A stretch of 64,000 nt of DNA, from the NCBI GenBank assembly GCA_025936115.1, contig JAICTZ010000007.1, forward strand, positions 1-64,000, read 5' to 3'. The translations under genes and the position numbers were made by a program. The notes under the pieces were generated by a model. That model was not told the origin of the DNA, did not search any database, and saw only the letters and a program-made list of their open reading frames with translations. Positions 32,959-48,970 of this stretch are shown here, piece by piece. The DNA is from Polyangiaceae bacterium. Its GTDB lineage: Bacteria; Myxococcota_A; Polyangia; Polyangiales; Polyangiaceae. Numbering within the stretch: the stretch's first letter is position 1; each line of letters begins with the position of its first letter.

Positions 32959-35193
32959 CTACACGAGCTGATCGGCTGCTTCGGCTGGACGCACGCGCAC
33001 CGCGCAATGCTTGTACGACGGCTGGCGCGAGTGCGGATCGAACGCCGGGAACGTGAGCTGATTCGCCTTGGCGTAGTGCATCGGCACGAAGAGCTGACCG
33101 GGACGCACGACGTGCGTCGGGTGGGCGCGCGCGCGGAACTGCCCGCGCCGCGATTCGACGATGACCCAGCTGCCCGGCTGGATGGAGAGTCGCTCCGCGT
33201 CGGTCGGGCTGAGCTCGACGTACGGCTCGTTCGGGTAAAGGCGCCGGAGCACCGCCGATTTCTCCGTGCGTGTTCCCGTGTGCCACTGGCTCGAGGAGCC
33301 GCGGCCCGTGAGCAAGACGAACGGGTACTCGGGCGTGGTCGCTTCCGGCACGGGGCGCGGCGCATCGAACAGCAGCCGCGCCTTGCCGTCGGCATGGAAG
33401 AAGCGACCGTCGGCGAACAGCCGGCGCTGGCTCTGCGGCAGCACGTTCTCGCCCGCGCGGAGCGGCCACTGGATCCCACGCCGATCGTCGAGCATGGCGT
33501 AGTCCTCGATGCCGGTGATGTCACACGGCTGTCCGCGCGAGAGCTCCTTCAAGATCTGAAACACCGCTTCCGGATCGGTCCAGCGCCGGAACAGATCCCC
33601 GACGCCCCACGCCTCCGCGAGCAGCTTGAAGATCGAAAAATCGGCGAGCGCCTCGCCCGGCGCGCGCACGACCTTCTTCAAGAGGCCGATGCGACGCTCC
33701 GAGTTGATGAAGGTGCCTTCTTTTTCGCCCCAGCCGGCCGCGGGCAGCACCAAGTGCGCGACGCGCGCGGTCTCGGTCGTCGTGTACATGTCTTGGACCA
33801 CCAAAAAATCCAAGCGCTTCAGAATGTCGACGGCGTCGTTCTGGTTGATCCAGGAGTGAGCGGTGTTCGTGGCGACGATCCAGAGCCCCTTGATCTTGCC
33901 GGCGAGCACGCCTTCGAGGATCTGATCGTACGCGAGGCTGGGGCGATCGGGGATGCGTTCCTGGGAGATCCCGAGGATTTGCGCGACCGTGGCGCGGTGC
34001 TCGGGATTGCTGAAGTCGCGACCGCCGAGCAGGCTCGTCGTGTTGCTGAAGAGGCGCGAGCCCATGGCGTTGCACTGACCGGTGATCGAGTTCGCTCCGG
34101 TACCCGGGCGACCGATGTTGCCGGTGATGAGCGCGAGATTCATCAGCGCCTGGGCGAGCCGCACGCCTTCGTAGCTCTGGTTGACGCCCATGGTCCACCA
34201 GATGCTCACGCGCTTGCCGGTGCCGATGAGCTGCGCGAGACGCGCGATCGCGTCCTGGGCGAGTCCGGTGGCCTCCGCGGCGCGGGCGAGCGTGAACGGC
34301 GCCACGTGCCGCGCGAGCTCTTCGAATCCCGACGTGTGCGCGTCGATGAACTCGCGGTCGAGCCAGCCGCGCGAGATGAGGTGCTGAATCACCGCATAAA
34401 ACAGCGTTAAATCGGACTTGGGCGCGAGCTGCAGGTGCAAGGTCGCGTTCATCGCCGTCTCGGTGCGGCGCGGATCGACGACCACGATTTCAGGCTGGTG
34501 CGGGTTCCTGCACACGTGCTCCCACAGAATCGGATGCGCGATGCAGAGGTTCGAGCCCACGAGCACGATCACGTCGGACTGCTCGAAATCCTCGTAGGCG
34601 TAGGGCGGCGCGTCGAAGCCGAAGGCCTGCTTGTAGGCCACGGCCGCCGTCGCCATGCATTGTCGCGTGTTGCCGTCGCCGTGCACGACGCCCATGCCGA
34701 ACTTGGCGAAGGCGCCAAGCATCGCAAGCTCCTCGGTCGGGATTTGTCCGGTGCCGAGCCAGGCTACCGAATCCTTGCCGTGCTTTTCTTGGATCGCTTT
34801 GAACCTGCGCACGAACGCTTCGAGCGCGCGATCCCAGGCCACGGGCACGAGCGCGCCGCGTTCGTTGCGGATGAGCGGCACGGTCGCGCGATCCTTGGCC
34901 TTGAGCGGCGTGAGCGCCTCCCAGCCTTTCGGGCACGCCATGCCGAAGTTCACCGAGTAATCGCGCGCCGGTGAGAGCCCGATGGCCTCGCCGTCTTTGA
35001 GGTGCAGCTCGAGGCCACAGCCGGTCGAACAGAAACCGCATACTGCCGTGGTCGTCGCGTCGGGCTGCTTCGCGAGCGGCACCTGACCGATGCCGAAGCC
35101 GGCTGGTTTGCGCAAGAGCTCCGCGGTGAGCGGCCCCTCCTTTTGGTGCAAGAGGGAGAGCGCGTCGGCCATCAACTCGCGCGGTGCTTTCAT
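32959..35193 (-). CDS. narB: assimilatory-type nitrate reductase catalytic subunit (NarB/NasC-like)
   Basis: 744 residues. A Mo-bis-MGD oxidoreductase: the N-terminal [4Fe-4S] motif is CGFCSTGC...CPKGW (about 52-90), followed by molybdopterin domains with [19 protein letters not shown] (Cys likely the Mo ligand) and [13 protein letters not shown], and a C-terminal dinucleotide-binding domain ([17 protein letters not shown]). No Tat signal, so cytoplasmic. Length matches cyanobacterial NarB and lacks the extra C-terminal [2Fe-2S] domain of enterobacterial NasA. ATGA overlap with the upstream DmsBC-like gene suggests that protein delivers the electrons. A formate dehydrogenase is less likely given the nitrite reductase in the operon. 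Confidence 0.9.
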
Positions 35194-36920
35194 GGTCCGA
35201 CGGCTCCCGGCATTTTGGGCGCGCTCTGCGCGCTGAAGAACAGCATGCGCTCGCAGATTTCACCGCCGAGCAAGAGCGCCCACGCCGTCACGGCAAGTCC
35301 GAGCTGCGTCTCGAGCGAGATGTCGGGCGTGCGCGCGACCGCGACGAGCAGCGTCGCGGCGACCGCGCCGAATACCAAGCGCGCGAAGGCGTACGGGCGG
35401 AGCTCGCCGATGAGCAAGAGCGCCGTGCGCCGGAGCTCACCGAGCCCGCGGTCCTTCAGGTGCAAGAGGATCTCCGCGTCGAACGCCAGCTTCACGCCGG
35501 CGAGCGCCGCGAGCGGCATGAACAAGCCGAACGCCGTCGCGCGCGCCGCCGAGTCACGGCCCTCGAACAGCGACGCCAGCGTGAGCGCGACGCTCGTCGT
35601 GGCGACGCCGAGCACGGCCGCCGTCAAGAGGAAGCGCCCACTCGTGCGCGCCGCGCTCCACCAGCGCCGCGCCGTGACTTGGTAGAGCATCATCGAGCAG
35701 AGCACGCCGACGACGCCGCTCGCCGCGACGACGAAGCCGAGCACCGAGCGCCCCTGCGCGAGCAAGAACGCGGGCGGTGCCGGCAAGCCCAAGCGTCCGC
35801 TCAACGGCTCGACCCAAAAGAGCGAGGCGTAGAGCACGGAGCAGCCCGCGAACAGGCCGAAGGCCGCGCACTCACGGCTCATCCACGACGTGCGAATGCC
35901 GAGGATCGCACGGAACGCGTACTGCGGGCGGCCGAGGTGGAACACGCTCGCGCCGAGCGCCAAGAGGCCCATCGCGAGCGCGACCAGCGACTGGTACGGC
36001 CGCGCGACGCCGAGCGTCGCGTAGCCGCCGAGCCGGCCGAGCACGAAATCGGCGACGAACGCCCCCACGGAAAGCTGCGTGAGCACGAGCAAGAACACGA
36101 GCGGCAAGTGCCGGTGCGAGCTTCTGACCCGGTGAAAGTCCGCGGGCAGCACGTTGCGCGGCAGCGGCCGAGCGCTCTTGTACGTCGTCGTGGGCACCGT
36201 GATCGTCGGCGACGGCGCTCCGGGCAAGAAAGCCTCGCTCTGTGCGTCTTCGAGCGCGCGCGCCGTCTCGACGATGCGAATTGAAATCGCTTCGTTGGGA
36301 CAGGCCTGCACGCAGGCGGGCGGCTCGCCCTCCGCCAACCGGTCGCTGCACATGTCGCACTTGCGCACGATGCCGCGCTTCTTGCTGTACTGCGGCACCT
36401 CGTACGGGCAGGTCAGCGTGCAGTACTGGCAGCCGATGCACTGATCGTCCAAGTGCTTGACGATGCCCGTCACCGGATCCTTTTCGTAAGCGCCGACGGG
36501 GCAACCCTTCATGCACGCCGGATCCACGCAGTGGTGGCACGCGGTCGTCACCGTCTGTTGCACGGGCGCGTCGGGCGTTCCGCCGTGGAGCAAGCCGACG
36601 CTGCGCCAGGTTTCGCCTTCATCGTCGTCGAGGCCGTTCAAGCGGTGACAGGCCGTGACGCAAGCCTTGCAACCGCTGCACGCGTCCAAATCCACCTGGA
36701 ACGCGAACTGCTGTCCCGGCCCGGGCCGTTCGAGCGGCATCAGATCCTGGTAGTAGCGTTTGCCCGGCGCGAGCGCGTCGCGGTCGTGCCGCTGCGAGAA
36801 GCGCTCGACGGCCGTGAGGCGCTGCTGCTCTTTCAAGTACTGCTGGAGCAGCGGCAGCCGCACGGGTTCGCGGCGGCGCGGAGGATTGCCCGGAAAAACC
36901 GAGGAGGCGTCTGTAACCAT
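35190..36920 (-). CDS. fused DmsB-like ferredoxin and DmsC-like membrane anchor
   Basis: 576 residues from ATG 36920. Residues about 65-215 are a DmsB/PhsB-type iron-sulfur subunit with four cluster motifs: [37 protein letters not shown] and CDMC...CVQACP. Residues about 270-570 hold eight transmembrane helices of the DmsC/NrfD-like anchor, which in relatives oxidises menaquinol. In most enzymes these are separate subunits. Lies 19 bp after the nitrite reductase fusion gene and overlaps narB, so it most likely passes quinol electrons to this nitrate reductase. That pairing is inferred from context. Confidence 0.85.
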
Positions 36921-36939
36921 GGGGATTTTCGGGGCAGCT

Positions 36940-39900
36940 TCACTCAGCGGCGGGACAGGCCGCGGGCAGCTCGGCGATCTTGATCGGCACGAGCTTGTCG
37001 ACTTCACGCGCGCTCGGTAGCTCGACCAGTACTTCGCCGGCCTCGATGCGGATCGGGAAGGTGCGAATGCGCAGCGAGTCTCCGCTCAAGCACTCGCCGC
37101 TCTTGAGCGAGAAGGTCTTCTTGTGCTGCGGGCAGGCCACCTTCGGTACGCCCTTTTGGTCACCGAGCAAGCCGCGCGCGAGCACCATGTCGCGCATGTG
37201 AGGACACATGTTCTGCGTCGCGTACCATTCACCGCGCGAGCTGAAGTTGTAGACCGCTATTTGCGCGTTGCCGTGGCGAATCGCCATGCCGCCGTCGAGC
37301 GGAAAATCCTCGACGCGCCCGACCCTGACCCAGCTCGTCTGGATCAGCGGCAGGTGCTTGCGATCGCGGACCTGCTCCGGCTTGTCTTTGACCCAATCGC
37401 GGGGCCGCGGTTGCCCGCGCTCGGTCGTGAGCTCGACGCTGTCGTCGGCCTCGGACGTGTTGGCGAAGTGCCGGAAACGGGCCCGTTTTTCCGGGTCTTT
37501 CACGACCTCCGCCCACTCGCAGCTGTAGGTATCGACCAGGTGCTGCATCTGCCGCTCGAGATCGGCCGCGATGCCGAGCCGGTCGTTGATCACCACTTCG
37601 CGCAAGTATTCGATGCCGCCGTCGAGCTTCTCGAGCCACACCGACGTGCGCGTCAGGCGATCGGCCGTTTGGATGTAGTACATGAGGAAACGGTCGATGT
37701 AGCGAACCGCCGTCTCCTTATCGAGATCGGCCGCGAGCAGCACGGCGTGCTTCGGCTTCATGCCGCCGTTACCGCAGACGTACAGATTCCAGCCCTTCTC
37801 CGTGGCGATGAGCCCGAAGTCCTTGCCCTGCGCTTCCGCGCATTCGCGCACGCAGCCGCTCACGGCCGACTTCAGCTTGTGCGGCGCTCGCAGGCCCTTG
37901 TAGCGATTCTCGACCTCGATCGCGAACTTGACCGAGTCCTGCACGCCGAAGCGGCACCAGCTCGTGCCGACGCAGCTCTTCACGGTGCGGAGCGCCTTGC
38001 CGTACGCGTGGCCGCTCTCGAAGCCCGCCGCCACGAGCTCCGCCCAAATTTCGGGCAGCTGCTCGAGGCGCGCGCCGAACAGATCGATGCGCTGGCCGCC
38101 CGTGATCTTGGTGTAAAGGCCGTATTTTTGGGCAACTTGCCCGAGCACCACTAGCTTCTCCGGCACGATTTCGCCGCCCGGGATGCGCGGCACGATCGAA
38201 TAGAGCCCGCCGCGCTGAATGTTGGCGAGGTAGCGATCGTTCGTGTCCTGGAGCGACGCGTGCTCGTTCTTCAGGATCATCTCGTTGTGCAGGCTCGCGA
38301 GGATGCTCGCGACGGCGGGCTTACAGATCTCGCAGCCGTTGCCCGCACCGTGCGTCGAGATGAGCTCCTGGAACGTGCGGTAGCCTTTGACCTGCACGAT
38401 CTGGAACAGCTCCTGGCGCGAGAACGCGAAGTGCTCGCAGAGCTGCTCGCGTACGATTTGGCCCGCCGCGCGCTGCTCGGCCTTCAAGATGTCGGCGATG
38501 AGCGGCACGCAGCCGCCGCAGCCCGTGCCCGCGCGGGTCTTCGCCTTGATCTCGCCGAGCGTCGAACATTCGCCGCGCCGAATGGCGTGGCATACGTCTC
38601 GCTTCGTCACGTTGTTGCACGAGCAAACCTGCGCCGACTCGCCGAGACCGGAGGCCGCCGTTTGCCCCTCGCGCGCGCCGAAAATCAGCTCTTCCGGCGC
38701 GTCCGGCAGCGCCGAGCCGCTGCGCATGATTTGCGTGAGCTTCGCGTACTCGGTCGCGTCGCCCACGAGGATGCCGCCGAGCAGGCGCGTGCGGTCCTCG
38801 CTGATGACGAGCTTCTTGTAGACGCCCTTGACGAGGTCTTCGTACAGAATGCTCGCGCCGCCCGTCGTGTCGGCGAAGGGATCGCCGAAGCTTGCGACAT
38901 CGACGCCGAGCAGCTTCAGCTTCGCCGACAAGTCGGAGCCCTCGAAGCGTGCCGAGGCGTCGCCCGTGAGATTGCGCGCGAGCACGCTGGCCATCTCGTA
39001 ACCCGGCGCGACCAGGCCGTAGAGCGTGTTCGCGTGGAGCGCGCACTCGCCGATGGCGCGTACGGCGCCGTCGCTCGTGCGCAGCTGATCGTCGATCACG
39101 ACGCCGCCGCGATCGCCGACGGTGATACCGGCTTCGCGCGCGAGCTCGTCGCGCGGACGGATACCGGCCGCCACGATCAGCATGTCGGCCTCGATCGGGT
39201 CGCCCTCGCTGAACTCGACGCCCTCGACGCGCTCGCCTCCGAGCACGCGTTGCGCCGAGACGTTCAGGTGCACCTCGACGCCGAGCTTGCGAATGCTCCG
39301 CAAAAGCAGGCGTGAACCCGCGCCGTCGAGCTGCCGCGGCATCAGGCGCGGCGCGAACTCGACGACGTGCGTCTCGAGCCCCATCTCGTGCACGGCCTTG
39401 GCCGCCTCGAGCCCGAGCAGGCCGCCGCCCATCACGACGGCGCGCTTGCTGCGCTTGGCATAGTCGCGGATTCCGACGAGATCTTCGATCGTGCGGTAGA
39501 CGAAGACGCCCGCCTTATCGACACCGGGGATCGGCGGCACGAACGCGCTCGAGCCCGTGCAGAGCACCGCCACGTCGTACGGCACGCGCTCCCCGCTCGA
39601 GGAACGAATCACCTTGCGCCGGCGGTCGATGCCCATCGCGCGCTCGCCGAGTAGCAGTCGAATGCCGCGCTGGCGGTACCACTCCGGGCCGGCGAGCAGC
39701 ATCTCGTCCGCGCTCGCCTTTTCGAAGAAGCTCGTGAGCCCCACGCGATCGTAGGCCGGGCGCGGCTCTTCGCAGAACGCGACCACCTGATAACGGCCCG
39801 CGGTGTCGAGCTCCGTGATGCGTTCGCAGAGCTTCCAGCCGACCATGCCGTTGCCGACGATGACGAGCTTTTGCTTGCTGCTACCGCTCGAAATCCGCGC

Positions 39901-40746
39901 GGGGGCGCTGCTTTCCGGGTTCGAGGTGCCGCTCACGACAGGCGCTTCTCCCACGCCGAGCACGCGTCCGAGCTCGTGCGCTTGGGGCCGCACGAAGGTC
40001 GAGCGCGGCGCCACCTCGTCAACGCGAATGCCGTGCTGCTTGAGCGCGAGCTCGACGGCGCTGCCGAGCGCGACGACGCGCAGCCTGCTGAGGTCGGTCC
40101 TGAGCTCGTGCGTCGTGCCGTGCACGCAACCGACTTCCCAAAACGCTTCGACCTGGACGGGGGAGCTCCAGACAATGGCGCGCATGGCGCCGCTGCGCAC
40201 CGTTTCGTAGAGCGTGAGGGCGCCCGTGTCGGAGCCGGGCGAGTTCGAGAGCAGCCGCACGGTCGCTCCCTTGCGCTCGAACAGATCGAGCAGGCGCGGA
40301 TCGGGACGCAGCGCGGCGACACCCACGACGCGCCCCTGCAGATCCAACATGTCGAGCGTGCCGCTCAGGCTCTCGAAGGACGAGAGCGGCGCGGCGGCGT
40401 CGGCGCGGAGCCCAATTTCCCGCAATGCCGCGGCGGGCTTCGGCCCCTGCGCGATTTTCCGCGCGGATCGCAGCGCTTGAGCGACTTCCTCTTCCCGGTC
40501 GAGCTGCCGCGCGAATTCGATGATGAGCCGCACGCCCTGCGCGGTGAAGAACACCACGTCGTCGAACTCACCGCGCGTAAGCTCCATGATCCAGCTCTCG
40601 ATGGGGCGGGATCCGGACTCGGCGGGGGCCACGTCGAAGCGGCTGAGCTCCGCTCCTTCCTGACGCAGGAGCCGCGCCGCCGCGTCCAAGTCGGACACGT
40701 TCGGAAGCGCAATCTGCCAGCTCGAGAACAAACCTGTATCGGCCAT
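36940..40746 (-). CDS. nirBD: HemD-NirB-NirD fusion: uroporphyrinogen-III synthase plus nitrite reductase
   Basis: 1268 residues from ATG 40746 (GAGG nine bases upstream; ATG 40767 also possible). Residues about 5-255 match HemD (FFTAQGVRLII; VGVAALRPDPRL; AIVWSSPVQVEAFW). About 290-590 is the FAD/NADH region of NirB (VGNGMVGWKLC; VVMGGGLLGLEAA). Near 700 is a BFD-type [2Fe-2S] motif (CSCNN...GTGCGGC) with a second partial copy (NGCEIC). The sulfite/nitrite reductase half follows, with siroheme/[4Fe-4S] ligands CVGTSWC near 925 and CVREC about 40 further on. About 1155-1268 is a Rieske NirD domain (CPH...CPQH). It reduces nitrite to ammonium with NADH; the HemD part makes the siroheme precursor. 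Confidence 0.9.
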   Translation of the reverse strand: MADTGLFSSWQIALPNVSDLDAAARLLRQEGAELSRFDVAPAESGSRPIESWIMELTRGEFDDVVFFTAQGVRLIIEFARQLDREEEVAQALRSARKIAQGPKPAAALREIGLRADAAAPLSSFESLSGTLDMLDLQGRVVGVAALRPDPRLLDLFERKGATVRLLSNSPGSDTGALTLYETVRSGAMRAIVWSSPVQVEAFWEVGCVHGTTHELRTDLSRLRVVALGSAVELALKQHGIRVDEVAPRSTFVRPQAHELGRVLGVGEAPVVSGTSNPESSAPARISSGSSKQKLVIVGNGMVGWKLCERITELDTAGRYQVVAFCEEPRPAYDRVGLTSFFEKASADEMLLAGPEWYRQRGIRLLLGERAMGIDRRRKVIRSSSGERVPYDVAVLCTGSSAFVPPIPGVDKAGVFVYRTIEDLVGIRDYAKRSKRAVVMGGGLLGLEAAKAVHEMGLETHVVEFAPRLMPRQLDGAGSRLLLRSIRKLGVEVHLNVSAQRVLGGERVEGVEFSEGDPIEADMLIVAAGIRPRDELAREAGITVGDRGGVVIDDQLRTSDGAVRAIGECALHANTLYGLVAPGYEMASVLARNLTGDASARFEGSDLSAKLKLLGVDVASFGDPFADTTGGASILYEDLVKGVYKKLVISEDRTRLLGGILVGDATEYAKLTQIMRSGSALPDAPEELIFGAREGQTAASGLGESAQVCSCNNVTKRDVCHAIRRGECSTLGEIKAKTRAGTGCGGCVPLIADILKAEQRAAGQIVREQLCEHFAFSRQELFQIVQVKGYRTFQELISTHGAGNGCEICKPAVASILASLHNEMILKNEHASLQDTNDRYLANIQRGGLYSIVPRIPGGEIVPEKLVVLGQVAQKYGLYTKITGGQRIDLFGARLEQLPEIWAELVAAGFESGHAYGKALRTVKSCVGTSWCRFGVQDSVKFAIEVENRYKGLRAPHKLKSAVSGCVRECAEAQGKDFGLIATEKGWNLYVCGNGGMKPKHAVLLAADLDKETAVRYIDRFLMYYIQTADRLTRTSVWLEKLDGGIEYLREVVINDRLGIAADLERQMQHLVDTYSCEWAEVVKDPEKRARFRHFANTSEADDSVELTTERGQPRPRDWVKDKPEQVRDRKHLPLIQTSWVRVGRVEDFPLDGGMAIRHGNAQIAVYNFSSRGEWYATQNMCPHMRDMVLARGLLGDQKGVPKVACPQHKKTFSLKSGECLSGDSLRIRTFPIRIEAGEVLVELPSAREVDKLVPIKIAELPAACPAAE

Positions 40747-40825
40747 CGACGCGTACCTCGCCGTCATGGTGAAAGCCACCCGGACTCGTCATCGTGCGCC
40801 CATCGAGCGATCGGGCACGAGGACC

Positions 40826-41283: not shown

Positions 41284-41544
41284 CTATCCCCCGGACACGG
41301 GCGGAATCAGCGCCACCACGTCGCCCGCCGCGAGCACGCGCTCGGCGTCGACGAATTCGTCACCGACCGCGAAGCGCACGCTGCCGAGCACGCCGCGCAG
41401 CCCCGGCCGCGACGCCTCGAGAAACTGCGCAAGCCGGCCAACCGTTTCGACGCCGTCCGGCAGCTCGATCCGCTCGGAATGAAGCCCCATGCGCTCGCGC
41501 AGCGCCGCGAAATAGAGCACGTCGATCGGCCGAGGAACGCTCAC
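41284..41544 (-). CDS. moaD: molybdopterin synthase sulfur-carrier subunit
   Basis: 86 residues with a ubiquitin-like fold pattern and the essential C-terminal Gly-Gly (ending PPVSGG), which is thiocarboxylated and donates sulfur to precursor Z. Start GTG 41544 with GAGGG six bases upstream; an ATG at 41565 lacks a ribosome site. Lies 24 bp from the divergent moaB. FAALRERMG near residue 11 is typical of MoaD. Confidence 0.92.
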   Translation of the reverse strand: MSVPRPIDVLYFAALRERMGLHSERIELPDGVETVGRLAQFLEASRPGLRGVLGSVRFAVGDEFVDAERVLAAGDVVALIPPVSGG

Positions 41545-41568: not shown

Positions 41569-42132
41569 ATGTCGGGACACGCCCACCACGAGCCAAACGC
41601 GAGACCAGACCAGAGCGCCGCTCGCCGCGCCATCCGCGTCCTTACCGTGACCATCTCGGACACACGCACGAGCGGCACCGACGAATCGGGGCAAACCTTG
41701 CGCGACCTCCTCGGAGCTGCGGGCTTCACGCTCGTCGAGCACCGCATCGTCGCCGACGAGCCGGCGCTCATCGCGCGCATCGTGCGCGAGCTCTCGGAGC
41801 GGGACCTCGCCGACGCGCTCGTCACGACGGGCGGCACGGGCATCGCGCCCCGCGACCGCACGTTCGAGGCGCTCGAGCCGCTCTTGGAGAAACGCCTCGA
41901 GGGCTTCGGGGAAGCGTTCCGCCGCCTCTCCTGGGACGAGGTCGGGCCGCGGGCCGTGCTGTCGCGTGCCGTCGCAGGTGTCGCGGGCGGTCGCTTCGTC
42001 GCCGCGTTGCCCGGCAGCCCGCGCGCGGTGAAGCTCGCGCTCGAGAAACTACTGATTCCGCTGCTCGAACACGCCGTCGCGCTGTGCCGCGGTGGCGGCG
42101 GCACGCACCATCACGGAGGCCGCGCCGGCTGA
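41569..42132 (+). CDS. moaB: molybdopterin-binding protein MoaB/Mog
   Basis: 187 residues. TISDTR near residue 29, VTTGGTGIAPRD near 97 and PGSPRAV near 148 are the MPT-binding motifs of MoaB/MogA, which adenylylates molybdopterin before molybdenum insertion. The first 20 and last 15 residues are His/Gly-rich extras (HAHH; THHHGG). One-base overlap with moeA (TGATG), so the two Mo-insertion genes are coupled. Confidence 0.92.
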   Translation: MSGHAHHEPNARPDQSAARRAIRVLTVTISDTRTSGTDESGQTLRDLLGAAGFTLVEHRIVADEPALIARIVRELSERDLADALVTTGGTGIAPRDRTFEALEPLLEKRLEGFGEAFRRLSWDEVGPRAVLSRAVAGVAGGRFVAALPGSPRAVKLALEKLLIPLLEHAVALCRGGGGTHHHGGRAG

Positions 42133-43337
42133 TGCTCACGTTCGAGGAAGCGCGCGCACGCCTACTCGCGGCCGTCGAAACGCTGCCGTCCGAGCGCGTT
42201 TCACTCGAGCGGACGCTCGGTCGCGTGCTGGCCGAGCCGCTCGTCGCGAGCGCGCCGATCCCCGCGTTTCCCTACAGCGCGATGGACGGCTATGCGTTCG
42301 CGACGCACGACTTCGTGGGAGCGGCTCCGTTTCGCTTCGCGGTGCGCGGCGAGAGCCGCACGGGGCGTCCCGCGGAGCCGCTCGTTCCCGGCACGGCATG
42401 CGTCATTTCTACGGGCGCCGAAGTACCGACCGCCGCCGACGCCGTCGTGCCGCGCGAGCTCGTCGAACGTGACGGCGACTTCATCACGACGAACGAGCGA
42501 CCGCGTGCGGGTCAGCACATTCGCCGCGCCGGCGAGGATCTCGCCGCGGGCGCGCTCGCGCTCGCGCCGGGCAGCCGGCTCGGCCCGGCGGCGCTCGGCC
42601 TCGCCGCCTCGCTCGACGCGACGGAGCTCGTGGTTTTTCGCCGGCCGCGCGTCACGATCCTGTGCACGGGCGACGAGCTACGCGCACCGGGCAGCGCGGC
42701 CGTGCCCGGCAAAATCCCGGAATCGGTGTCACCGCCGCTCGCGGCGCTCGCCTCGCTCGCCGCGGCCGACGTGCGGCGCGCTCCGCCGGTCGGCGACGAG
42801 CCGGACGCCACGCGAGCCGCCATCGCGCAAGCGCTGACGGATACGGATCTGTTGCTCACCGTCGGCGGCGTGAGTGTCGGCGACCACGACTGGGTCCGCC
42901 CCGCGCTCGAAGCGGAGGGCGTGACCTTGGACTTTTGGAAGGTCTCGATCAAGCCTGGCAAACCGCTCGCTTTCGGCCGGCGTGCGGGGGGCGCGTGGGT
43001 GCTCGGTTTGCCGGGAAATCCAGCGAGCGCCGTGATCACGTTTTCGCTCTTCGGCATGCCGCTGCTCCGTGCGCTCCAAGGCGATCGCGAGCCGCTACCG
43101 AAGCTCGCCGCGCTGCCGCTCGCGACGGCACTCTCGCACAAGCCGGGCCGGCTCGAGTTCGTGCGCGCGCGGCTCGAGCTGCGGGGCGAGCGACTCGTCG
43201 TCGTTCCGCAGGAAAATCAGGCTTCGGGCGCGCTCACGAGTCTCGCCTGGGCGGACGCGCTCGCGCTCGTGCCCGGCGACGTCGAGAGGCTGCCCGAGGG
43301 CGCGCTCGTGAGCGTGCTCCGGGTTCAGGATTTGTGA
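42132..43337 (+). CDS. moeA: molybdopterin molybdenumtransferase
   Basis: 401 residues from ATG 42132. MoeA signatures: PAFPYSAMDGYA near residue 41, TGAEVP near 95, VPRE, then the MoaB-like domain with CTGDEL near 178, VGGVSVGDHD near 245 and KPGKPLAFG near 275, and GLPGNPAS; the beta-barrel domain IV closes the protein. Inserts molybdate into adenylylated molybdopterin. Its 3' end overlaps convergent moaE by 13 bp. Between residues 170 and 180 the domain order is normal; nothing is missing. Confidence 0.94.
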   Translation: MLTFEEARARLLAAVETLPSERVSLERTLGRVLAEPLVASAPIPAFPYSAMDGYAFATHDFVGAAPFRFAVRGESRTGRPAEPLVPGTACVISTGAEVPTAADAVVPRELVERDGDFITTNERPRAGQHIRRAGEDLAAGALALAPGSRLGPAALGLAASLDATELVVFRRPRVTILCTGDELRAPGSAAVPGKIPESVSPPLAALASLAAADVRRAPPVGDEPDATRAAIAQALTDTDLLLTVGGVSVGDHDWVRPALEAEGVTLDFWKVSIKPGKPLAFGRRAGGAWVLGLPGNPASAVITFSLFGMPLLRALQGDREPLPKLAALPLATALSHKPGRLEFVRARLELRGERLVVVPQENQASGALTSLAWADALALVPGDVERLPEGALVSVLRVQDL

Positions 43338-43846
43338 GGGTGAGCGTCGGCGTGAACGTGGCCGTGGTCGTGACCCGGCTCGCAACGCGCGTCTTCCCAG
43401 CCGACCCAGTAGGGACCGGCGGGGCCGTGCTCGCGTTTCCAGATCGGCACGCGCGCCTTGACGCGATCGATGACGAGCCGGCACGCCGCGAACGCCTCGT
43501 CGCGGTGCGGCGCGCTCGCGGCGCAGATCACGGCCGCATCGCCGACGTTGAGCGAGCCCGTACGGTGGTGGACCGCGACGCGCACGCCGGGCAGCTCGGC
43601 CGTGATCTCGGCGAGAATGCGCCGCATTTCCGCGCAGGCGAGCGACGGGTACGCTTCGTACTCGAGCAGCGTCACCGCCTGGCCGGCGTTCGTGTTGCGC
43701 ACCGTGCCGACGAAGGTCGTGACGGCGCCGGCGCCGGCGTGTGAAACGGCCGCGATGACCCGGTCCAATGACAGTGGGTCAGTCGAGAGCGCTACGCTCG
43801 GCGCGTTTTCGGCCCCGTCCAGCGGGTTTTCCGCGCCGTGCCCCAC
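43325..43846 (-). CDS. moaE: molybdopterin synthase catalytic subunit
   Basis: 173 residues from GTG 43846, which has GAGGAGGG six bases upstream inside the end of moaC. Family motifs TFVGTVRNTN near residue 44, LEYEAYP near 61, VHHRTGSLNVGD near 92 and VPIWKREH near 133 (conserved Lys). With MoaD it converts precursor Z to molybdopterin. The C-terminal tail is His-rich (HDHGHVHADAHPH), perhaps metal-binding. Two bp after moaC, so co-translated. Confidence 0.93.
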   Translation of the reverse strand: MGHGAENPLDGAENAPSVALSTDPLSLDRVIAAVSHAGAGAVTTFVGTVRNTNAGQAVTLLEYEAYPSLACAEMRRILAEITAELPGVRVAVHHRTGSLNVGDAAVICAASAPHRDEAFAACRLVIDRVKARVPIWKREHGPAGPYWVGWEDARCEPGHDHGHVHADAHPHKS

Positions 43847-43848
43847 CC

Positions 43849-44778
43849 CTAACCCTCCTCGCGCCGGAAGTCCCCCGAGCGTCCGCCCGATTTCGCGACG
43901 AGCTCGACGTTCGTGATGCGCATACCGCGATCGACGGCTTTGAGCATGTCGTAGAGCGTGAGGGCGGCGGCGCTCACGGCAACGAGCGCTTCCATCTCGA
44001 CGCCCGTGCGGTCGAAGGCCCGCGCCGTCGCCGTCACGCTGACGCCGACCGGCTCCGCGCTCGGCACGAGCTCGACCTCGACGCCCGTGAGCTGCACGGC
44101 GTGGCAGAGGGGGATGAGCTCGGGCGTGCGCTTGGCCGCCTGGATGCCGGCGATGCGCGCGACGGCGAGCACGTCGCCTTTCGGCGTATTGCCCGCCTTC
44201 AGCGCGGCGAGTGTCTCGGGTTTCATGGCCACGAAGCCGCGCGCTACCGCCCGCCGGGGGGTCGCTTGTTTCTGCGAGACGTCCACCATGTGGGCCTCGC
44301 CGTCGGGCGTGAGGTGCGTGAGGTTTGGGGCCGAACGCGGCAAAAGCTCGTCGAAAGCACGCTCGAGCCGCGCCCGGCGCTCGGCGGCTTCGGTCTTCTT
44401 GCTGCGCGCGAGCTTGACGAGCGCGTAGCGTTTCAGCGGCGTGAGCGCCGGCCACGCGCGCTCGAGCTCCGCGCGCCGCGCGCCCGCGGCGGCCGCGAGC
44501 TCCGCGACAATTTGCTCCGGATCCGCTGCGGGTGCGACGCGCTCGGGCACGGGGCGCGCCCGTTCAGCCAGGCGCTCGACGCTCGCGAAGTCGACCTGTA
44601 CGCCTGCGCCGGCGGCAATGAGCGCGCGGCGTTCGTCGAGACTGAGTCCACGCCACGCCTCGAGCGACAAACGCACACCCGCCGCGTCGAGGGCGCGCCG
44701 CGCCGCAAGTGGCAGCACCGCGAGCGCGGAGTTCGGCTCCTCGAAAGCAAATTGCTCAAACGTGCTACGATCGTCCAC
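43849..44778 (-). CDS. moaC: fusion of nitrate-reductase-associated domain and MoaC
   Basis: 309 residues from GTG 44778 (a TTG at 44829 would add 17 residues). Residues about 5-145 resemble the nitrate reductase associated protein family (NarM in cyanobacteria): FEQFAFEE at the start, [17 protein letters not shown], and [15 protein letters not shown]. Residues about 155-309 are Moa[36 protein letters not shown] and KAVDRGMRI are the active-site motifs of cyclic pyranopterin monophosphate synthase. MoaC is normally about 160 residues and stand-alone. The fusion joins cofactor synthesis to a factor known to be needed by NarB-type reductases. Confidence 0.85.
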
Positions 44779-44829
44779 GCGCGACAACGGCGCGATTGTT
44801 TCACGCTGCGCCCTCGACGCAAGGTCCAA

Positions 44830-45849
44830 GTGAGTCGGTTCTTACCCATTTTAGGCGAGGTCGAGCGCGCGGCAGAGGCCGAGGTCACGCAAGTCTCGCC
44901 CGCGAGCGTGCGCATCTCGCTCACGGATCGCTGCGATCTGGCTTGCGTTTACTGCCGGCCGTCGCGCAGCGACGGGTACTTGCCCGACCGGCTCGACGAG
45001 CCCGCGCTCCACACGCTCATCGCCGGGCTGATGCGGGCCGGAGTGCGGCGCATCCGTTTCACGGGCGGCGAGCCGCTGCTCTCCGCGCACGTCACGGGTG
45101 CGATCCGGCGCGCCGCCGAGCTCGGGGCCGAGGACATCGCGCTCACGACGAACGGCACGCGCCTGAAGAAGCTCGCGGGAGAGCTCCGTGCCGCGGGCCT
45201 CCGGCGCCTCACGCTGTCGCTCGACTCGCTCGATCCGGCGCGCTTCGAGCGCATCACGCGCGGCGGCAAGCTCGAGCGCGTGCTCGAGGGGCTCGAAGCC
45301 GCGCGCGCCGTCGGCTTCGACGAAATCAAGCTCAACACCGTGGTGCTGCGCGGTGAGAACGACGACGAAATCGAGAGCATCACGCGCTTCGCCTGGGAGC
45401 GCGGCTTGGTTCCGCGCTTCATCGAAGTGATGCCGATTGCCGAGGGCGCGCGCATCGTCGCCGAGCGGCTCGTGCCCGCCGCCGAAATCCTGCGAGCGCT
45501 CGGGCCGCTCTTGTCCACTGCCGAGCCTGCCGTCGATCCGAACCGCGGCCCCGCCAAGTACGTCGCGAGCCGCGAGGATCCGCGCCTGCGCGTCGGCGTC
45601 ATCACGGGAACGACGGATACGTATTGCAAGGGTTGTGACCGCCTGCGCGTCTCCGCGACGGGGGTGCTGCGGCCGTGCCTCGCGACCGATCGGGGCGTCG
45701 GGGCCGCCACGGCCGCGCGCACGGGCGACGCCGACGCGATCGCGCGCGCCGTGAATGACGCCTGGAAGCTCAAGCCGGACGGCGACGTCTGGCGGGGCTG
45801 CACGGAGCCGAGCGCGAGCGAGGTCTCGATGCGCGCCATTGGCGGCTGA
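44830..45849 (+). CDS. moaA: GTP 3',8-cyclase
   Basis: 339 residues, GTG start with AAGG five bases upstream. Radical-SAM motif CDLACVYC near residue 37, FTGGEPLL near 76, the C-terminal cluster [18 protein letters not shown] near 267, and the terminal Gly-Gly needed for activity. Performs the first step of molybdenum-cofactor synthesis from GTP, with MoaC. Divergent from moaC, so both first-step enzymes share one short control region. Confidence 0.94.
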
Positions 45850-45879: not shown

Positions 45880-46473
45880 TCAGTGCGGCGCGTCTGCGGG
45901 CGTGTCCCAATCGCGGAGCTCGCTCCGTTCGCGGGCGCCGAGTACGAGCTCGGTCGCGCGCTCGCCCAAGCGCAGAATCACGCGCTGGAGCGCGCGCTCG
46001 CCAGCGGCAAGGGTCGCATCGACGACGGGTAACGCTGCCGCCGCATAGCGCGCGACGAGCGTCTGCCACAGCTCGCCGTCGCGCGGCGCGAGAAAGTCCG
46101 CCGCCGGAGCCTCGACGCCGAGCCGCGCGATGAGCGGCGCCTCGAGGTAGGGCAAGTCGCACGAAAGGGCGAGCGCGTGCGTGCGACCTCGCGCTTCGGC
46201 GTGTGCGAGCAGGGCACGTAGTCCGCCGAGGGGGCCGATGCCCGGGGGGTCGTCGGCGAGCGCAGGCAGACCCAAGTGAGCGTACGCCTCCGCGGCACCG
46301 ACGAGAACGATCGGTGTGCCGGGTAGCGCGTCACGGGAGCGCGCAACGAGCCGCGCGGCGAGCGTTTCGCCGCTCGGGAGCGCGAGGTTGCCTTTTGCGA
46401 CGCCGCCGAGGCGCGAGCCGCGACCGCCGACGAAAATTCCGATCACGAGTGAGGTGCGCGTGGCTTCGAGCAT
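45880..46473 (-). CDS. mobA: molybdenum cofactor guanylyltransferase
   Basis: 197 residues from ATG 46473. IFVGGRGSRLGGVAKG near residue 11 is the GTP-binding loop with its conserved Lys; DDPPGIGPLGG and SCDLPYL follow as in MobA. Adds GMP to Mo-molybdopterin to give the MGD form that the nitrate reductase requires. Convergent with moaA, divergent from modABC across 143 bp. Confidence 0.92.
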   Translation of the reverse strand: MLEATRTSLVIGIFVGGRGSRLGGVAKGNLALPSGETLAARLVARSRDALPGTPIVLVGAAEAYAHLGLPALADDPPGIGPLGGLRALLAHAEARGRTHALALSCDLPYLEAPLIARLGVEAPAADFLAPRDGELWQTLVARYAAAALPVVDATLAAGERALQRVILRLGERATELVLGARERSELRDWDTPADAPH

Positions 46474-46616
46474 GTGACTCGGCTCCGATTCACTGCTCGG
46501 AGCATGCACCGAGCCGGCGCCGCGCCCAAACTGGCTTTGGCCATAGCCCGGCAACGGAAGAAGACAGCGCGAAATTCACCGTCCATGCCCAGTGGGCGTC
46601 GGTGTAGAAAGCCTGC

Positions 46617-47435
46617 ATGAGTCTACGCAGCGCGAGGCGTGCGCTCCTCTTGTGCTGCTTCGTCACGCTCGCCGCGAGCGGCGGGTGCGGCACCAAACCA
46701 AAGGCGGGCGCGCACCCGGAGCTCACCGTGTTCGCCGCGGCGTCGCTGCGCGAAGTGTTCACGGCGCTCGCCCGCCGCTTCGAAGCGCTGCGTCCCGGCA
46801 CGCACGTGGTGCTCAGTTTCGCGGGCAGCCAGACGCTGCGCTCGCAGATCGAGCACGGCGCTCCCGCCGACGTGTTCGCGTCCGCCGACGAGCGTCACAT
46901 GACCGCGCTCGCGGCGGAAGGTCACGTCACGGCGCCGAAGTTCTTTGCGCAAAACGAGCTCGTCGTCGCGGTCTCGCGCGCAGGGGCGAGCAGCGTGCGC
47001 GAGTTTCGCCAACTACCGGACGCGACGCGCATCGTGCTCGGCGCGCCCGAGGTGCCGGTCGGCGAATACACGCGCCGGGCGCTCGAGCAGGCCAATGCCG
47101 ACCTGGGCGCCGACTTTCAGGCACGCGTCGAAGCCCACGTGGTTTCACGCGAGCCGGACGCGCGGCAGGTGCTCGCCAAAGTCGCGCTCGGCGAAGTGGA
47201 CGCGGGGATCGTTTACCGCACGGATGCGCTGGCTGCCAAAGACAAGGTCGTGATCGTGCCGATGCCGGCGGCCTACAACGTGCTCGCGAAGTACCCGGTC
47301 GCGGTCACGACGCACGCGCCGCGGGCGGAGCTCGGGCGTGCCTTCGTCGAGCTCCTGTTCTCACCCGAGGGCGCGCGGGTACTCGCCGAGAGCGGCTTTC
47401 TACCGGTGACCGGCGCGAAGGCCGACGCCCGCTGA
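46617..47435 (+). CDS. modA: molybdate ABC transporter substrate-binding protein
   Basis: 272 residues. Signal peptide with lipobox AASGGC near residue 23, then LTVFAAASLREVF and SFAGSQTLRSQI, the oxyanion-binding motifs of ModA. Captures molybdate outside the membrane. First gene of modABC; modB begins 6 bp downstream. No ModE gene or obvious ModE site was recognised upstream. Confidence 0.95.
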   Translation: MSLRSARRALLLCCFVTLAASGGCGTKPKAGAHPELTVFAAASLREVFTALARRFEALRPGTHVVLSFAGSQTLRSQIEHGAPADVFASADERHMTALAAEGHVTAPKFFAQNELVVAVSRAGASSVREFRQLPDATRIVLGAPEVPVGEYTRRALEQANADLGADFQARVEAHVVSREPDARQVLAKVALGEVDAGIVYRTDALAAKDKVVIVPMPAAYNVLAKYPVAVTTHAPRAELGRAFVELLFSPEGARVLAESGFLPVTGAKADAR

Positions 47436-47441
47436 GTCACG

Positions 47442-48257
47442 ATGGCGCCCGCTCCACGCTTTTCTCGAATCACGCTGGCGCTCGGCGCCCTCGGCAGCGC
47501 GCTGGTCGTGTTTTTGCTCTTGCCCATCGTCGGCTTGGTTTCCGGCACGAGCTTCGCCGACGCGCGCGCGGGCCTCCGTCATCCGCTGGTCGCGCCCGCG
47601 CTCGAGCTCAGCTTGGTCACGACGGCGCTCAGCGTGACGCTCGTCGTCGTGCTCGGAACGCCGCTCGCGTGGCTCGTCGCGCGCACGCCCGGACGTGCCG
47701 CGCGCTGGCTCGAGTCGTCGCTCAAACTTCCCGTCGTGCTCCCGCCGGCCGTCGCCGGGCTCGGGCTCCTGCTGGCTTTCGGCCGCGCGAGCGCGCTCGG
47801 CGGGTTGCTCGCACGTTTCGGGCTGTCCGTGCCCTTCACGACTGCCGCCGTCGTGCTCGCGCAGGTTTTCGTCGCGGCCCCCTTTTACGTCGAGGCGGCG
47901 ATTGCGGCTTTTCGGCGTTTGGACACGAGCCTGCTCGTCATCGCGCGGACGCTCGGCGCGTCACCGGTGCGCGTGCTTTTCCGCGTGGCGTTACCGCTCG
48001 CGGCGCCCGGATTGCTCTCGGGGGCAGCGCTGTGTTGGGCGCGCGCGCTCGGTGAGTTCGGCGCGACGCTGATGTTCGCGGGCAGCCTCGCCGGGCGAAC
48101 TCAAACGCTGCCGCTCGCGATCTACGCCGCGCTCGAGAGCGATCTGCGTGCGGCTCGCTCGCTCTCACTCGTGCTCGTGGTCGTGGCCTTCGCGCTGCTC
48201 GTCGCGGTCCAGAGCGCCGAACGCGCGAGCACCCGCAGCGGCGCGGAGCACGACTGA
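47442..48257 (+). CDS. modB: molybdate ABC transporter permease
   Basis: 271 residues with five or six membrane segments. LARTLGASPVRVLFRVALPLA-type EAA loop near residue 170 contacts the ATPase. PLAWLVARTPGRAARWLE near 70 and LPVVLPPAVAGLGLL near 95 are typical of ModB. Overlaps modC by one base (TGATG). Confidence 0.94.
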   Translation: MAPAPRFSRITLALGALGSALVVFLLLPIVGLVSGTSFADARAGLRHPLVAPALELSLVTTALSVTLVVVLGTPLAWLVARTPGRAARWLESSLKLPVVLPPAVAGLGLLLAFGRASALGGLLARFGLSVPFTTAAVVLAQVFVAAPFYVEAAIAAFRRLDTSLLVIARTLGASPVRVLFRVALPLAAPGLLSGAALCWARALGEFGATLMFAGSLAGRTQTLPLAIYAALESDLRAARSLSLVLVVVAFALLVAVQSAERASTRSGAEHD

Positions 48258-48970
48258 TGCTGCGCGTCGATCTCGGGGGCCACATCGGTCAGCTCCGGCT
48301 CGAGGCACGCTTCGACACGAGCCGCGGCCCGGTCGTGCTCACGGGACCGAACGGCTCCGGTAAGACGAGCCTCTTGCTCATGATCCTCGGCGTGATCGCC
48401 CCCGAGCGCGGTGAGGTGAGCCTCGACGGCACGTCCTTGTTCGACGCGCAACGGGAGGTCAACGTCGCCGTCGAGCAGCGCGCGATCGGCTACGTCCCGC
48501 AGCATTACGGCTTGTTCCCCCACCTCACGGCCGCACAAAACGTCGAATTTGCGCTCGCGTGCCACGAAGCGGCGCCGCCGCGCGCCGAACGGCGCGAGCG
48601 GGCGCTTTCGCTGCTCGCCGAGCTCGGCCTCGCGCCGTACGCCGAGCAGCGGCCGCACGCGCTCTCGGCGGGTGAACGGCAGCGCGTCGCGCTCGCGCGT
48701 GCGTTCGCTTCGGCACCCAGGGCGCTCTTACTCGACGAGCCCTTCGCCGCGCTCGACGTGGGGACGCGCCGGCAGGTGCGTGTGTTCTTGCGCGATTACC
48801 TCGAGCGCCTCGCGCTGCCGACGGTCGTCGTGAGCCACGACGCCGAGGACGCGCGCGCCGTAGGGCGGCACATCGCCGTGCTCGAAGCCGGACGCGTGGT
48901 TCAGAGCGGCAGTTGGGAGGAGCTCGCGGCGGACCCGGCGTCCGCGTTCGTGCGCGAGCTCACGTCGTAG
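48257..48970 (+). CDS. modC: molybdate ABC transporter ATPase
   Basis: 237 residues. Walker A GPNGSGKTS near residue 31, signature LSAGERQRVALA near 135 (Ala replaces the usual Gly of LSGG), Walker B LLLDEPFAALD near 158, and the switch His in VVSHDAED. Shorter than typical ModC because the C-terminal TOBE/Mop molybdate-sensing domain is absent, so ModC-level feedback by molybdate is not expected. Confidence 0.93.
   Translation: MLRVDLGGHIGQLRLEARFDTSRGPVVLTGPNGSGKTSLLLMILGVIAPERGEVSLDGTSLFDAQREVNVAVEQRAIGYVPQHYGLFPHLTAAQNVEFALACHEAAPPRAERRERALSLLAELGLAPYAEQRPHALSAGERQRVALARAFASAPRALLLDEPFAALDVGTRRQVRVFLRDYLERLALPTVVVSHDAEDARAVGRHIAVLEAGRVVQSGSWEELAADPASAFVRELTS

Follow-up and report, generated by a model that had tools for sequence, protein, structure and literature searches.

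A gene joining a NarM-family domain to MoaC in a Moco gene island of Polyangiaceae, and relatives joining NarM to other cofactor-making enzymes

The window, that is the whole stretch of 64,000 nucleotides analysed here, carries a NarM-MoaC fusion gene within a Moco island (moaD, mogA, moeA, moaE, moaA, mobA and an ABC transporter), which lies beside a Mo-enzyme cluster. The genes and domains concerned are the following.

32959-35193, minus strand: bis-MGD oxidoreductase of 744 amino acids, presumed assimilatory nitrate reductase (PF00384, PF01568, PF04879)
35190-37007, minus strand: 4Fe-4S/DmsC-type electron-transfer protein beside the reductase (PF13247, PF04976)
36940-40779, minus strand: HemD-NirB-Rieske (NirD) in a single ORF, 1279 amino acids (PF02602, PF07992, PF01077, PF13806)
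41284-41535, minus strand: moaD (PF02597, ThiS)
41569-42132, plus strand: mogA/moaB-type MoCF_biosynth gene (PF00994)
42132-43337 (start approximate), plus strand: moeA (PF03453, PF00994, PF03454)
43325-43840 (start approximate), minus strand: moaE, directly downstream of the fusion and on the same strand (PF02391, 127.9 bits)
43849-44778, minus strand: NarM-MoaC fusion gene, 309 amino acids, start GTG at 44778 or TTG at 44829, frame intact in 53 genomes
43882-44289, minus strand: MoaC domain with catalytic residues present (Pfam profile, alignment)
44386-44751, minus strand: NarM/Nitr_red_assoc domain (PF09655), predicted all-helical (Pfam profile, AlphaFold2 models)
44830-45849, plus strand: moaA, divergent, 51 bp from the GTG of the fusion (PF04055, PF06463)
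45880-46554, minus strand: mobA-like NTP transferase (PF12804)
46617-48970, plus strand: three-gene ABC transporter (PF13531, PF00528, PF00005), probably modABC, molybdate specificity being suggested by its place

From the GTG the fusion ORF runs for 309 codons and a stop. Translation from the alternative TTG at 44829 would make the gene abut the divergent moaA, whose GTG is at 44830. At L032, the closest of 36 loci found in a genome scan, the match begins with the first residue of the protein as translated from the GTG, and this start lies 52 bp from the moaA of that locus. No stop codon interrupts the frame in the window, which rules out for this gene a frameshift hiding two genes.

The sequence-only reading of this DNA had assigned the N-terminal 145 or so residues to the NarM family and the C-terminal half to a complete MoaC, and profile searches bore out both assignments. 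The N-terminal part matches PF09655 with 56.2 bits (E 6.6e-15), over the Pfam gathering cut-off of 25. With the NarM model TIGR02664 the whole protein scores 59.5 bits and the N-terminal piece 61.6 bits (E 5e-16 to 1e-16) against an NCBI cut-off of 110, and this half is therefore filed as a divergent PF09655 member and not as NarM proper; for brevity it is called NarM below. The NarJ/TorD/DmsD and XdhC families gave no match to the fusion (NCBIfam E≤1; Pfam E≤0.01). A MerR-type DNA-binding domain was rejected as an identity for NarM, the NCBIfam match being weak (12.6-13.8 bits, cut-off 261) and a PDB fold match lacking. The MoaC half covers positions 1-136 of the 136 of PF01967 (185 bits) and exceeds the curated cut-off of TIGR00581 (199.5 bits over 141.5). 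It matches solved MoaC structures, among them that of the E. coli protein (1ekr) with 57% identity, and the catalytic Lys, His, Glu, Asp and Lys residues are present in the window fusion. Residues equivalent to K51, H77, E112, D128 and K131, in what we take to be the E. coli numbering, are invariant in 48 of 48 aligned fusions, which had been picked because they scored well and had linkers no longer than 40 residues; K51 and D128 are named in the titles of PDB MoaC entries. The protein thus appears to be a bifunctional NarM-MoaC, its MoaC function being as well supported as sequence allows.

The Mo-enzyme cluster is less clear cut. The presumed nitrate reductase and the HemD-NirB-Rieske ORF lie 3 to 11 kb from the fusion. 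The reductase scores 503 bits with the Fdh-alpha model, 472 with NasA and 456 with NasC, all under the curated NCBIfam cut-offs; since the three models fit about equally, the label nitrate reductase rests mainly on context. Of the earlier description of a Moco/nitrate island with a NarB-length reductase, the Moco context and the length (744 amino acids) stand, but all curated cut-offs are missed. The ORF at 36940-40779 combines HemD (uroporphyrinogen-III synthase), a NirB-type nitrite reductase and a Rieske NirD, that is a siroheme-pathway enzyme fused to a siroheme enzyme, and a single tblastn alignment spans nearly its full length in L032, L033 and L035.

PF09655 is present in 38 of 377 sampled genomes of the phylum and in at least 93 of 183 genomes of the order, the latter being a lower bound because the Pfam search overlooked at least one NarM found by a custom profile (G144). 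Frames were read in the sequence stretches around the PF09655 matches of the order. Since sequences of the same set went into the custom NarM and MoaC profiles, the scores of members with these profiles are inflated. Within the order, 53 genomes carry an intact, unbroken NarM-MoaC frame. Of these, 52 belong to the home family (Polyangiaceae) and the remaining one, G402, to a different family; the truncated fusion of G470 and the NarM of G438, both at contig ends, are outside this count. That the frame recurs intact in so many genomes, among them G339 (assembled in two contigs) and G452 (in a single contig), also argues against an assembly artefact. The genome scan, made with a peptide pattern of this group, gave 36 loci including Polyangium species and Polyangiaceae MAGs; the records are titled Myxococcota, Myxococcales, Polyangia, Polyangiaceae, Polyangium, Deltaproteobacteria or Proteobacteria, the single Proteobacteria locus (L045) being unfused. 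None of 66 plasmid records matching the fusion covers 80% of it.

The linker between the two domains ranges from about 5 to about 150 residues. Within NarM the residues R27, R50, G57, W109, L112 and R117 are invariant in 48 of the 48 selected fusions. In 15 pairs from six members of the genus Polyangium dN/dS was 0.12-0.38 for NarM and 0.02-0.12 for MoaC; NarM evolves about three times faster than MoaC and yet is constrained, so that in terms of sequence evolution it is a conserved domain under purifying selection. A MoaC tree was computed from 95 rows (53 fused and 42 standalone MoaCs, nine degenerate copies having been excluded beforehand), the standalone sequences coming from 40 chosen places and two loci at hand. 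Fused MoaCs are strongly clustered, with a minimum of 8 label changes compared to 31 for shuffled labels; well-supported branches force only 2 changes, and both a single and a multiple origin of the fusion fit. The standalone MoaCs of genus g259 (G475, G476, G478; genomes of 11-15 Mb) nest among fused ones, from which we conclude that the fusion was probably lost in this genus. These genomes carry a separate, canonical-type NarM.

In the home genome there is one PF09655 match and one MoaC match, both in the fusion. As far as an assembly of 93% completeness can show, this speaks against a separate MoaC devoted to nitrate reductase alongside a housekeeping one. No second MoaC match was found in 46 of the 53 intact-fusion genomes; the other seven, G417 among them, have more than one. 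Being the only MoaC match, the fused MoaC presumably serves as general cPMP synthase for all Moco enzymes of the home genome. Outside the xanthine-oxidase family these comprise five candidates: the NasA-like enzyme of the window, a NasC-like and a NapA-like protein (772 and 606 bits, under their cut-offs of 1100 and 904), an FdhF/YdeP that exceeds its cut-off with 956 bits, and one of the sulfite-oxidase type. Of 50 genomes searched, 20 carry an intact fusion; two or more PF01568 matches, which do not by themselves prove Moco binding, occur in 19 of these, and a PF00174 match in 17.

NarM is joined to other partners as well. A single stop-free NarM-MoaC-MoaE frame occurs in five genomes (G337, G426, G456, G458, G462) and a NarM-MoaE frame in one, G481, which also carries NarM-MoaC. 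The two genes of G481 are located at L126 6850-7917 and L127 6102-7826, and its NarM and MoaC are separated by a long Pro-rich linker. NarM-MobA frames are found in two genomes of one genus (G325, G234), and the reverse order, MobA-NarM, in two of another genus (G355, G177). At 80 loci examined, nine genomes (G159, G343, G149, G464, G463, G378, G379, G465, G484) were seen to have an unfused NarM and, with its centre no more than 0.6 kb away, a separate mobA. In G239 an unfused NarM lies near an 800-amino acid oxidoreductase of bis-MGD type with a NapB-like gene. Seven plasmids carry a canonical-type NarM, which in six, all of acetic acid bacteria, is directly upstream of an annotated FdhF/YdeP, sometimes followed by moaA, an NTP transferase gene, moaD, moaE or fdhD; the seventh, from Agrobacterium, has no annotated Moco gene within 6 kb of NarM. 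In four of the six acetic acid bacterial loci (L069, L070, L235-L238) NarM stands behind cytochrome bd oxidase genes. The standalone NarM of four g259 genomes (L116, L117, L119, L120) has no profiled Moco gene within 7 kb. In family f2 divergent NarM-like genes (L171 7008-8594, L172 6991-8614) are directly followed by a protoglobin-histidine kinase, with FixG-type or cbb3 oxidase genes nearby. Within the order, a tie of NarM to YdeP alone was rejected: G012, G017, G134 and G347 have YdeP over the cut-off and no NarM match, and G289 has the fusion and no YdeP match at E≤1e-50.

NarM is reportedly needed for nitrate reductase activity, as found in a cyanobacterium, the founding work having been done in Synechococcus. 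The sequence-only reading accordingly had the fusion channel cofactor to one nitrate reductase. Its domain identities and Moco context were right, but the channelling to a single enzyme is not supported: 11 of the 53 intact-fusion genomes are without a nitrate-reductase-like match, an outcome which that reading had itself named as telling against it, and the fusion carries the sole MoaC match in 46. In these 11 (G289, G413, G417, G418, G425, G435, G452, G357, G314, G163, G472) the NasC model matched nothing at E≤1e-60, a threshold so permissive that NasA, NapA and some formate dehydrogenases also pass it, and NarG matched nothing at E≤1e-100, with the best five candidates per genome scored in the NasC-type search and the best three in the NarG search. 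Eight of the 11 genomes are at least 90% complete, and one of the 11 is a single 16 Mb contig. The PF01568 proteins of four of them were classified (2 of 2 in G289, 2 of 3 in G163, and 3 of 4 each in G357 and G314): YdeP is among them in G357, G163 and G314, and the others are PhsA-, Fdh- or Qrc-like, none of these exceeding 180 bits with the NasC model (cut-off 1100). In 18 of the 53 fusion genomes a NasC-type match reaches 650 bits or more, and others have NapA-, NarG- or Fdh-like matches. Over the order, nitrate-reductase-like matches are found in 68 of 93 genomes with NarM compared to 39 of 90 others (Fisher p 5e-5); a tree-aware pairwise test of the co-occurrence showed nothing, and with only 3 well-supported pairs was uninformative. 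In cyanobacteria a nitrate reductase associated protein co-occurs with nitrate reductase and Moco genes in a single module, module 52 (PMC5862535).

AlphaFold2 models of the whole fusion had a mean pLDDT of 93.2 and a pTM of 0.65, the latter leaving the mutual placement of the two domains unsettled; NarM alone gave a pLDDT of 92.1 and a pTM of 0.87. The domain is predicted to be all but wholly helical. Neither a Foldseek search of the NarM model against the PDB (best E 1.2) nor a search with the NarM sequence profile (best E 0.44) gave a match.

A side branch of NarM-pseudoMoaC proteins was found at nine loci. Four of them (G006, G349, G418, G427; L071 8718-9866, L072 2979-4187, L133 6965-8218, L158 3857-5299) have the K51, H77 and E112 positions changed and D128 kept, with K131 kept only in G418, and end in a strongly hydrophobic C-terminal segment (mean hydropathy 2.4-2.9), which is likely to be a membrane tail anchor. 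Those of G424 and G249 are degenerate without a hydrophobic tail, and those of G041, G144 and G411 form a milder class. A separate, better MoaC is present in G006, G349, G249, G418 and G144. In G041, G411 and G424 (L073 2077-2949, L163 4516-5418, L164 6578-7453) only degenerate MoaC matches were found, for which we have no explanation beyond incomplete assemblies. G041 nevertheless encodes a protein related to the window reductase, with 71% identity. Two further genomes, G036 and G089 (98-100% complete), have a NasC-like protein of about 765 bits and no MoaC match. No Moco gene is among the 20 proteins scanned around the pseudoMoaC genes, two of which are the pseudoMoaC paralogues themselves. 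The neighbours include a class II (ProS-like) tRNA synthetase, an alpha/beta hydrolase, a Cys/Met PLP enzyme, an FHA-ABC transporter, a PP2C and others, several being without match, and have no common theme.

That relatives join NarM to other cofactor-making enzymes suggests that it serves the cofactor assembly line and not one nitrate reductase. On balance we think that NarM probably is a docking or maturation module belonging to the line from Moco to bis-MGD, and that in this protein it is attached to the housekeeping MoaC. All its settings would share a partner to which NarM binds, the likeliest candidates being apo-forms of bis-MGD oxidoreductases or a late Moco protein that the settings have in common. 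NarM would keep cofactor-making enzymes near this partner or the bis-MGD clients; fusing it to one cofactor-making enzyme would fix that contact, and nitrate reductase would be one client among several. The fusion of NarM to three different Moco enzymes (MoaC, MoaE, MobA) argues for such a module, as do its place beside mobA or FdhF/YdeP, the purifying selection on it, its invariant residues, and the intact MoaC half as sole MoaC match in genomes with several candidate Moco enzymes. XdhC, which acts as chaperone for a different family of Moco enzymes, has MobA as an interaction partner, and a complex with MoeA, MogA and MobA has been suggested (PMC2997495). Four genomes (G056, G061, G120, G347) with PF01568 and MoaC matches and no NarM match argue against it, as does the fusion genome G289, in which no YdeP (E≤1e-50), NasC or NarG match was found. 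The NarM genes of the Agrobacterium plasmid and of the g259 genomes, with no Moco gene seen nearby, and the f2 genes followed by protoglobin-histidine kinases also count against it. A gene fusion can moreover follow from operon neighbourhood alone, and for archaeal MoaC fusions frameshifts in conserved blocks have been suggested (PMC11237513).

It is conceivable, although in our estimate unlikely, that operon neighbours were simply joined by loss of a stop codon with no function beyond co-expression. The clustering of Moco genes at the locus would suit this, as would the g259 lineage, which probably lost the fusion and lives without it, and the MoaC-MoaE, MoaC-MoaB and MoaD-MoaE fusions in archaea and MoaD-MoaE in some bacteria which the same source describes (PMC11237513). 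Purifying selection on a NarM half kept in 53 genomes does not fit with a mere passenger, nor does the variety of partner enzymes, with both orders in the case of MobA. NarM might instead be a ligand-sensing regulatory domain for Moco, MGD or another end product, exerting feedback on MoaC, MoaE or MobA, an idea to which we give little credence. Fusions to enzymes of different steps and the invariant charged NarM residues would be explained, and the hydrophobic-tailed NarM-pseudoMoaC proteins look like sensors or adaptors and not like enzymes; standalone NarM beside oxidoreductase genes suits maturation better, and the model leaves it uncertain how the two domains are arranged (pTM 0.65). Channelling of cofactor synthesis to one NarB-type nitrate reductase is highly improbable, in spite of the TIGR02664 family name (nitrate reductase maturation protein NarM), the cyanobacterial module, the nitrate-type cluster within 9 kb of the fusion and the order-wide co-occurrence, since at the thresholds applied no nitrate-reductase-like match turned up in 11 of the 53 fusion genomes, the fusion is the only MoaC match for several Moco enzymes, NarM adjoins FdhF/YdeP in acetic acid bacteria, and cPMP, the MoaC product, comes several pathway steps before the molybdoenzyme.

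Returning to NarM as a docking or maturation module, a wider proposal takes in the side branch and is put forward tentatively, as a possibility. PF09655 may be a mobile adaptor, possibly of new fold, of the whole Moco to bis-MGD line and not a nitrate reductase factor, fused to MoaC, MoaC-MoaE, MoaE and MobA as physical Moco metabolons, and one NarM-MoaC copy may then have become catalytically dead and membrane-anchored, with a new task outside Moco synthesis. The fusions to MoaC, MoaE and MobA and the non-nitrate neighbours shift the question from how NarM helps NarB to which Moco protein NarM holds. The covalently joined partners are open to direct expression and testing, and bear on whether Moco enzymes act as a physical assembly line.

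In the open-access literature we found neither a description of the NarM-MoaC fusion nor an explanation of what NarM does, and none of the eight NCBIfam models matching the protein describes this combination. A survey of Mo-utilisation fusions lists molybdoenzyme fusions, and NarM does not appear in the accessible part of it (PMC6147048).

The chaperones NarJ/TorD/DmsD and XdhC could, by analogy, share with NarM the binding of both apo-molybdoenzyme and Moco-synthesis enzymes, but differ in family, and the NarM model has no PDB fold match. With NarM/Nitr_red_assoc (PF09655, TIGR02664) the N-terminal half shares the Pfam family, the conserved core and the Moco-gene neighbourhood; it differs in reaching about 60 of the 110 bits set by NCBI, in being fused to MoaC and in occurring without a nitrate-reductase-like match in 11 of 53 genomes. 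In the known MoaC/MoaB, MoaC/MOSC and MoaC/MobA fusions (NF002947, NF011069, NF011070), and in the archaeal MoaC-MoaE and MoaC-MoaB (PMC11237513), MoaC is likewise joined to a Moco protein, whereas the partner found here is not a known pathway enzyme. Compared to MoaC itself, the cyclic pyranopterin monophosphate synthase, the fusion has the same full-length domain and the same catalytic residues, and differs by the NarM domain at its N-terminus.
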